41,517 nucleotides of DNA from Flexistipes sp. (lineage in GTDB: Bacteria > Chrysiogenota > Deferribacteres > Deferribacterales > Flexistipitaceae), in NCBI RefSeq assembly GCF_036172515.1, contig NZ_JAXKVW010000017.1, forward strand, positions 1 through 41,517. The letters are read 5' to 3'. Positions 39,579 to 41,517 of the stretch are shown piece after piece. Numbering within the stretch: the stretch's first letter is position 1; every line of letters starts with the position of its first letter. The position numbers were made by a program, and so were the translations under genes. The notes beneath the pieces are model-generated. The model did not search any database. It saw only the letters and a program-made list of their open reading frames with translations, and was not told where the DNA came from.

Positions 39579-40019
39579 ATGTATAAGGTTTTTTCAGACG
39601 GAGCCTGCAAAGGCAACCCCGGTCCGGCCGGTATAGGTTTCGTTATATATGATGATGACGGAGAGAAGGTTTACGAATGTTCCACTTATATTGGTGAAGG
39701 GACAAACAATATTGCCGAATACACAGCAGTCCTTGAAGCAATAAAGGTCATAAAGCAGAGGCTCAGTGAAGACACGGCAAACGGGAATTTAACCGGGAAA
39801 AATGAAAAAGTTATTTTTCATCTGGATTCTGAACTTGTCGTCAGACAGCTTAACGGTATTTATAAAGTAAAGGATCCCACTCTAAAAAAAATATTTTTTA
39901 AAATATTGGAAGAGCTCAAAGGTATGGAGTATGAGGTTGTTCATGTTCCCAGAGACCTAAACAAAGTAGCAGACAGACTCTCAAAGAGAGCTTTAAATGT
40001 CATAAATTCAGCCTATTGA
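39579..40019 (+). CDS. Ribonuclease HI family protein
   Basis: The 146-residue protein has the RNase H fold, starting with FSDGACKGNPGPAGIGF. The four acidic catalytic residues are in place: Asp7, Glu47 (NNIAEY), Asp83 (FHLDSEL) and Asp132 (KVADRLS). It degrades the RNA of RNA-DNA hybrids. It lacks the basic protrusion of E. coli RnhA and is nearer to the archaeal/Bacillus-type family. TTGACA overlaps its stop codon, but a matching -10 is poor. Confidence 0.9.
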   Translation: MYKVFSDGACKGNPGPAGIGFVIYDDDGEKVYECSTYIGEGTNNIAEYTAVLEAIKVIKQRLSEDTANGNLTGKNEKVIFHLDSELVVRQLNGIYKVKDPTLKKIFFKILEELKGMEYEVVHVPRDLNKVADRLSKRALNVINSAY

Positions 40020-40143
40020 CAAATACGGTATATGTCTACTTTAGAGTTTATTTTAAAAAATTAAGTCCTCTGTCCCTAACCTTTTTATTTTATATATCCT
40101 TAATAACCTTTGTGGCAACCACCATAGCATAAAAAAAACGTAG

Positions 40144-40292
40144 GAGAGCTTTGAATATTTCTGGAAGCGCGGCTTAATCCGTACAAAGTTTATTCCGAAA
40201 CCCAGTATTATCAAGCATGCGGGACTACCAGGGCACTTAATAATTAAGTGCCCTGGCCTAAAACTGGGAAAAACACATTATTCAAAGCTCTC
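40144..40292 (+). repeat. 149-bp nested inverted-repeat element (possible structured RNA or MITE)
   Basis: The ends GAGAGCTTTGAATA (40144-40157) and TATTCAAAGCTCTC (40279-40292) are perfect 14-bp inverted repeats. Inside, CCCAGT (40201-40206) can pair with ACTGGG (40263-40268), and a 29-base perfect palindrome forms a hairpin (40228-40256). A GGAA/TTCC pair encloses CGG-CCG in the left arm, which would give a three-way junction. It contains no ORF of note. The strand is arbitrary. TA dinucleotides lie at both borders, as in some MITEs. A structured ncRNA is the main alternative. Confidence 0.55.
40228..40256. repeat. 13-bp perfect hairpin with TAA loop
   Basis: CCAGGGCACTTAA and TTAAGTGCCCTGG are exact reverse complements around TAA. 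It is the apical part of the 149-bp element. No T-run follows, so it is not a standard terminator on either strand. Confidence 0.7.
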
Positions 40293-40325
40293 TAAGTATT
40301 AAGTTTACAGGACCGAGGAACAAGG
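40292..40325 (+). repeat. 34-bp repeat, copy 1
   Basis: The first 20 bases, ctaagtattaagtttacagg, recur exactly at 41365-41384, and 10 of the next 14 also match. This copy begins on the last base of the 149-bp element. Confidence 0.75.
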
Positions 40326-40497: not shown

Positions 40498-41307
40498 ATG
40501 AATTGGTTTTTATCTTTGTCTCCTGTTATGCAGGCTTTTGTTGCAACAATGTTTACATATCTGATGACAGCAGCCGGAGCTGCCATGGTTTTTCCATTCA
40601 AATCGATTAATAAAAAAGCTTTAAATGCTATGCTGGGTTTTGCCGCCGGAGTTATGATTGCAGCCAGTTTCTGGTCCTTGCTTGCCCCGGCTATCCAGAT
40701 GGTTGAAGACAGAGGGGGCATTGCGTGGATTCCAGCTGTTGTCGGATTTATTTCAGGAGGTTTTTTCCTCTGGGTAATTGATAAAATACTGCCGCATCTG
40801 CATCTTAATATGAAAAGAGAAGACGCAGAAGGGATTTCCACTTCCTGGCAGCGAAGTGTTTTGCTTGTTCTGGCGATTACCCTGCATAATTTTCCTGAAG
40901 GTCTGGCAGTGGGAGTAGCTTTTGGAGCTGTAGCTGCCGGTTTGCCCTCTGCAACTATTGGAGGGGCTGTTGCATTAGCTGTCGGTATTGGTATTCAAAA
41001 CTTTCCGGAAGGAGCTGCAGTATCTGTCCCGTTAAGAAGAGAAAAACTCAGCAGATGGAAGAGCTTTGTGTACGGACAGTTCTCCGGTGTAGTGGAGCCG
41101 GTAGCCGGAGTGATAGGTGCTTTGGCAGTAATTTATATGAGGCCTGTGCTGCCTTATGCGCTTTCTTTTGCTGCCGGCGCTATGATTTATGTAGTAGTGG
41201 AAGAGTTAATTCCGGAATCTCAATTTGGGGATGAAGTGGATTTGTCAACCATAGGTGCAATGATGGGATTTGCTGTAATGATGACGCTGGACGTTGCCCT
41301 TGGATGA
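40498..41307 (+). CDS. ZIP-family metal transporter (ZupT-like)
   Basis: The 269-residue protein has about eight membrane helices. The metal-site motifs are HNFPEG in helix 4 (His130, Asn131, Glu134) and QNFPEG in helix 5 (Gln167, Asn168, Glu171), followed by a conserved VEELIPE near helix 7. ZIP proteins bring zinc, iron or other divalent cations into the cytoplasm; the exact metal is not evident. It has a strong ribosome site (GGAGGAG, 8 bases upstream). The gene stands alone between two copies of a 34-bp repeat and beside an IS element. Confidence 0.92.
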
Positions 41308-41401: not shown

Positions 41402-41517
41402 TGTGGTACAAAAATAATGGACAAAAAATTAAGCACCTATTATACAAATAAGAGAGAGGTGCAAAATGACATCGAGACGCAGGAGTTATACTGCAGAATT
41501 TAAAGAATCTGCAGTAA
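41402..41517 (+). mobile_element. Left end of an IS3-family insertion sequence (cut by window edge)
   Basis: The stretch tgtggtac...aataatggaca at 41402-41423 looks like the left terminal inverted repeat of IS3-family elements, which often begin TG and contain a GGACA block. A transposase orfA start follows at 41466. The right end and orfB lie outside the window, so the exact border and group are inferred. Confidence 0.6.
41466..41517 (+). CDS. IS3-family transposase OrfA, N-terminal 17 codons only
   Basis: The visible peptide MTSRRRSYTAEFKESAV matches the start of HTH_Tnp_1 (Transposase_8) OrfA proteins, which bind the IS ends. GAGAGGTG lies about 5 bases before the ATG. The gene runs off the window. 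Confidence 0.75.
   Translation, partial: MTSRRRSYTAEFKESAV

Follow-up and report, generated by a model that had tools for sequence, protein, structure and literature searches.

The question raised by this locus is what kind of element lies at positions 40144-40292 (plus strand) of the window, the whole 41,517-nucleotide stretch of Flexistipes sp. DNA that was analysed, where a strongly folded segment of 149 bp sits between an RNase H-like gene (ending at 40019) and a ZIP-transporter gene (starting at 40498). A preliminary description, made from the sequence alone, had offered three candidates: a non-coding RNA (6S-like or novel), a MITE with TA borders, or the remnant of an insertion sequence (IS) end. 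It had also proposed that several copies with variable flanks would point to a MITE and a single conserved syntenic copy to an RNA.

The element is bounded by perfect 14-bp terminal inverted repeats (TIRs), the left one being GAGAGCTTTGAATA (40144-40157, plus strand; family consensus RAGAGCTTTGAATAAT) and the right one lying at 40279-40292 on the minus strand. Between them are a REP-like hairpin at 40163-40184 (plus strand), which reads GGAAGCGCGGCTTAATCCGTAC in the window copy and GGAAGCGCGGCTTCAGCCGTGC in most copies and is paired in 88% of the cells of the alignment, and an inner palindrome, CCAGGGCACTTAATAATTAAGTGCCCTGG, at 40228-40256 (no strand assigned), whose perfect 14-bp arms (40228-40241 and 40243-40256) are separated by a loop of 1 nt. 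The RNA minimum free energy of the window copy is -56.6 kcal/mol, whereas its shuffled versions average -29.65 (z = -8.0) and none of 200 is as stable; folding of the minus strand gives z = -6.4. It is clear that the architecture exceeds chance, as had been claimed. Of the three nested sets of arms described, the TIRs and the inner palindrome stand, but the 6-bp middle arms (CCCAGT at 40201-40206 and ACTGGG at 40263-40268) are an incidental level of the fold without conservation in other copies; across 20 copies the proportion of paired cells is 66.7% in this helix and 88-91% in the remaining three. No ORF of 80 amino acids is present inside the element, in agreement with the earlier observation that no protein frame explains it. 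At less than 500 bp, without coding capacity and with TIRs in the range of about 4-30 bp, it has the properties by which bacterial MITEs are defined.

The element matches 46 places in its own genome (G000, a 31-contig assembly), several of which are pieces of one copy, and the flanks of the copies are variable. Outside this genome, matches were found in only one of 60 related genomes, that of the congener G001 (one contig of 2,526,590 bp); a second congener, 88% complete, gave no match to the MITE, and scans of named genomes with the MITE pattern or with the IS5-family transposase described below gave no relatives. In fetched loci of G000 and G001, 72 non-nested TIR pairs of at most 320 bp were delimited; these loci were picked via the family's own ends, with the flanks unselected, and the pair counts are not a census. 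Half of the pairs (36/72) share their interior type with the window copy; most of these fall into length classes of 131, 149, 170, 209 and 289 bp. The 149-bp class, to which the window copy is assigned from own-genome matches, TIR pairs and flanks (in the orientation with the GGAAG hairpin first), carries CCAGGGCACTTAATAATTAAGTGCCCTGG in place of the AAGTCCCACTT of the 131-bp class, while the longer classes have a nested insert at roughly the position of this palindrome. Other pairs enclose different, likewise palindromic interiors, twelve of them of a 132-bp type (ACCCCACCCAACCTCCCC...).

Several further features were observed among the copies. The nested inserts (TAATGTATCC...GGCTGGTGCTAC; L024:3372-3580, L025:3248-3456, L055, L060 and others) resemble inverted GTAG-type REP pairs and are also found alone, for example in the flanks of L028. 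At L212:2253 to about 4290 (2,416-2,418 kb of G001) a group II intron (Rfam RF02003) splits a MITE copy at the GGAAG hairpin, and IS110-family end pieces in tandem adjoin the TIR of that copy. A 1,041-bp TIR pair at L103, considered as a possible autonomous element, consists instead of two miniature elements around small genes.

Exact direct repeats of 5 bp lie outside the TIRs in 34 of the 72 pairs, compared to 7, 2, 1, 1, 0, 0 and 0 pairs for exact repeats of 2, 3, 4, 6, 7, 8 and 9 bp; when the right flanks were shuffled among copies (2,000 trials), exact 5-bp repeats numbered 1.0 on average and 6 at most. All 42 copies with a duplication at no more than one mismatch fall outside ORFs of at least 120 amino acids; bacterial MITEs are usually found outside genes (PMC10969869). 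Furthermore, two sites occupied by the MITE in G000 are empty in G001 (at 1,247,903 and 994,885): at C20:12.4 kb and at C18:29.3 kb of G000, the two flanks of the MITE copy match DNA that is contiguous in G001, with overlaps of 4 bp and 3 bp respectively between the matches, and the joined flanks align across each site at about 93% identity. The folded element is a MITE, one member of a family with dozens of copies in two Flexistipes-type bacteria. The preliminary description was thus right to consider a MITE, on the grounds of copies, variable flanks and duplications, but not in its TA borders, since the family duplicates 5 bp.

A probable driver is present in the same genomes, with its transposase intact in the sister species G001. 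G001 contains at least 25 near-identical copies of an IS of 1,336 bp with one transposase gene (376-378 amino acids), whose product scores above the NCBIfam curated cut-off for the IS5-family model; exact 5-bp duplications are present at 21 of the 25 copies examined. G000 has a single decayed relative, which shares 94% identity with it along 1,337 bp and has a TGA and a TAG in the transposase frame. The ends of the IS (GAGACTTTTGAATCA and GAAACCTTTGCACAAG) are related to the MITE TIRs; the two are alike but not identical, the best agreement being 11 of 12 bases, and the duplication length is equal. Some MITE copies end in CTTTGCACAA or CTTTGCATAA, resembling one end of the IS. The interiors of the MITE and the IS are unrelated, and therefore the MITE did not arise from this IS by simple deletion. 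We estimate a probability of about 0.85 that the MITE is a non-autonomous transposon whose likely cognate is this IS5-family element, with its DDE transposase and 5-bp duplication. As judged from the sequences, the MITE would be moved in trans by the IS5-family transposase or a close relative; the enzyme would recognise the MITE ends of about 15 bp and insert the element while duplicating 5 bp of the target. The interior is a gene-free set of exchangeable palindromes. The ends seem to be all that the enzyme needs, because similar ends enclose unrelated palindromic interiors.

The transposase families searched for in the genomes were DDE_Tnp_1 and Y1; DDE_Tnp_1 gave 115 matches in G001 and one in G000, and part of this difference may be due to repeat collapse in the 31-contig G000 assembly. 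A 1.9-kb IS with a 568-amino-acid frame had been suspected as the driver since AGCTCTGAATAAT occurs in eight copies; it was rejected, the motif lying about 110 bp inside the boundaries.

Alternatively, the MITE could be moved by some other transposase with an equal 5-bp duplication, the IS5-family element being similar by descent or by chance. The ends of the MITE and the IS do differ at several positions, and the transposase searches covered only the two families named; nevertheless, the duplication length, the first bases and the CTTTGAAT/CTTTGCA end motif are common to both, copies of both are present in both genomes, and the ends of six other DDE-type ISs in G001 bear no resemblance to those of the MITE, which makes this alternative unlikely. 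It is far less probable still that the unit is a REP/BIME element that depends for its movement on a REP-associated Y1 enzyme. In favour of this reading, the interior contains a pair of REP-like palindromes in inverted orientation (GGAAGC..GC together with GGGACTAAAGTCCCACTTCC), and the genome has Y1 transposase genes. Against it, whole copies have TIRs at their ends and 5-bp duplications outside them, and Y1 enzymes are not known to make such duplications; in addition, neither the MITE palindromes nor the nested inserts flank the Y1 genes examined, the arrangement sought for a REPtron or BIME. The interior palindromes themselves may have been acquired via a Y1 route.

Least probable of all is that the element is a gene for a structured non-coding RNA, whether 6S-like or novel, a reading that is not supported here. 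The stability of the fold would be consistent with it, and covariation among 20 copies exceeds that of shuffles, a control that ignores relatedness. In the outer stem, however, the covariation largely follows the division into TIR subfamilies (five of the 20 copies have C-G in place of G-C, for example) and needs no RNA explanation, because it is enough that one enzyme recognises the two ends symmetrically. In the Rfam covariance-model search of the window, as the preliminary description had suggested, only a tRNA elsewhere reaches the gathering score, and matches to the element below it are weak and at chance level. The syntenic site in the sister species G001, where conservation would have spoken for an RNA, has no copy of the window MITE, and the dozens of dispersed copies carrying target duplications likewise argue against a gene of this kind.

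The window copy itself is without a target duplication, its left flank being CGTAG and its right flank TAAGT. Part of an IS110-family left end (40063-40143, plus strand), matching the corresponding end next to an IS110-family transposase in L207 and L034, stops exactly at the left TIR of this copy; the duplication is apparently missing because this IS110-family end abuts the TIR and neighbouring DNA has been deleted. The proposed IS end remnant is wrong for the folded element itself, even though such a piece adjoins its left side. The intergenic counterpart in G001 contains another TIR element, which is 140 bp long and has AAATT duplications; the right flank common to the two genomes resumes at 40292-40293. 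From this arrangement we infer that the MITE would have inserted at TAAGT, that the IS110-family element would then have entered its left TIR, and that a deletion would have taken most of the IS110-family element together with the left duplication and an older MITE. A short repeat, TAAGTATTAAGTTTACAGG, occurs to the right of the MITE (40293-40315), near the contig end (41365-41387) and on a different contig (G000:C8:112645-112663); by eye, the contig appears to end (41467-41517) within the start of an IS3-type OrfA (MTSRRRSYTAEFKES...).

The IS110-family element, identified by Pfam PF01548 and PF02371, has inserted repeatedly at the ends of the MITE and of the IS5-family IS (loci concerned: window 40063-40143; L207:1361-1580; L206; L209; L034:1880-3150; L210:590-620). 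Its left end is joined to a TIR-like GAGA sequence at six places in the two genomes, one of them in a copy of the IS5-family IS. At 1,844 kb of G001 the IS110-family element has ATAAA-GA next to one end and GAGACTTTTG next to the other. Since the right flank of that IS5-family copy is ATAAA too, the point of insertion is two bases within the TIR. The non-coding region of the IS110-family left end (L207:1361-1580) contains AAGACCTTTGAA, a stretch of 12 nt that is also present in the AAGACC-type TIR; matches in 300 shuffles reached at most 10 nt. The match is a candidate guide and, by analogy, agrees with the RNA-guided targeting described for the IS110 family (PMC11208160, PMC11187229). These insertions recall IS4321 and IS5075, which target the TIRs of the Tn21 family according to the citation of Partridge and Hall (2003) in PMC11187229. 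A broader picture can be offered only tentatively, in which one transposase type would serve a set of MITEs with common ends of about 15 bp, the interiors would swap small palindromes and the TIRs would be a programmed landing site of the IS110-family element; if true, this would be a layered mobile-element community with the MITE end as a common address.

Among known systems, the Chunjie MITE of Geobacter uraniireducens (PMC10969869) is similar in that it is short, intergenic and variable in length, has direct repeats and conserved TIRs, and occurs in dozens of copies besides many partial ones; the two are likened by description and not by sequence, and it is for the Flexistipes MITE that a probable driver IS has been identified. 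The Tn3-derived miniature elements known as TIMEs (PMC4133298) share short inverted ends, movement in trans, AT-rich 5-bp duplications and similar ends around different DNA, but have Tn3-type ends of 40 bp as opposed to IS5-family-like ends of about 15 bp. The interior palindromes resemble the inverted REP pairs of the REP/BIME-RAYT system (PMC3733652), and the nested inserts, which terminate in GTAGCACCAGCC..GGCTGGT, are reminiscent of GTAG-tagged REPs; unlike that system, the Flexistipes unit has TIRs and target duplications and does not flank the Y1 genes examined.

The Flexistipes MITE is a new family within a familiar class of mobile DNA and not a new RNA, and on its own it does not uncover a new mechanism. 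Many intergenic repeats in a Flexistipes lineage are explained by this family, which is paired with a probable driver of known ends and duplication length, and the insertions can be polarised where the sister species has an empty site. A by-product is a naturally occurring target set with which guide-RNA targeting by an IS110-family element could be tested.
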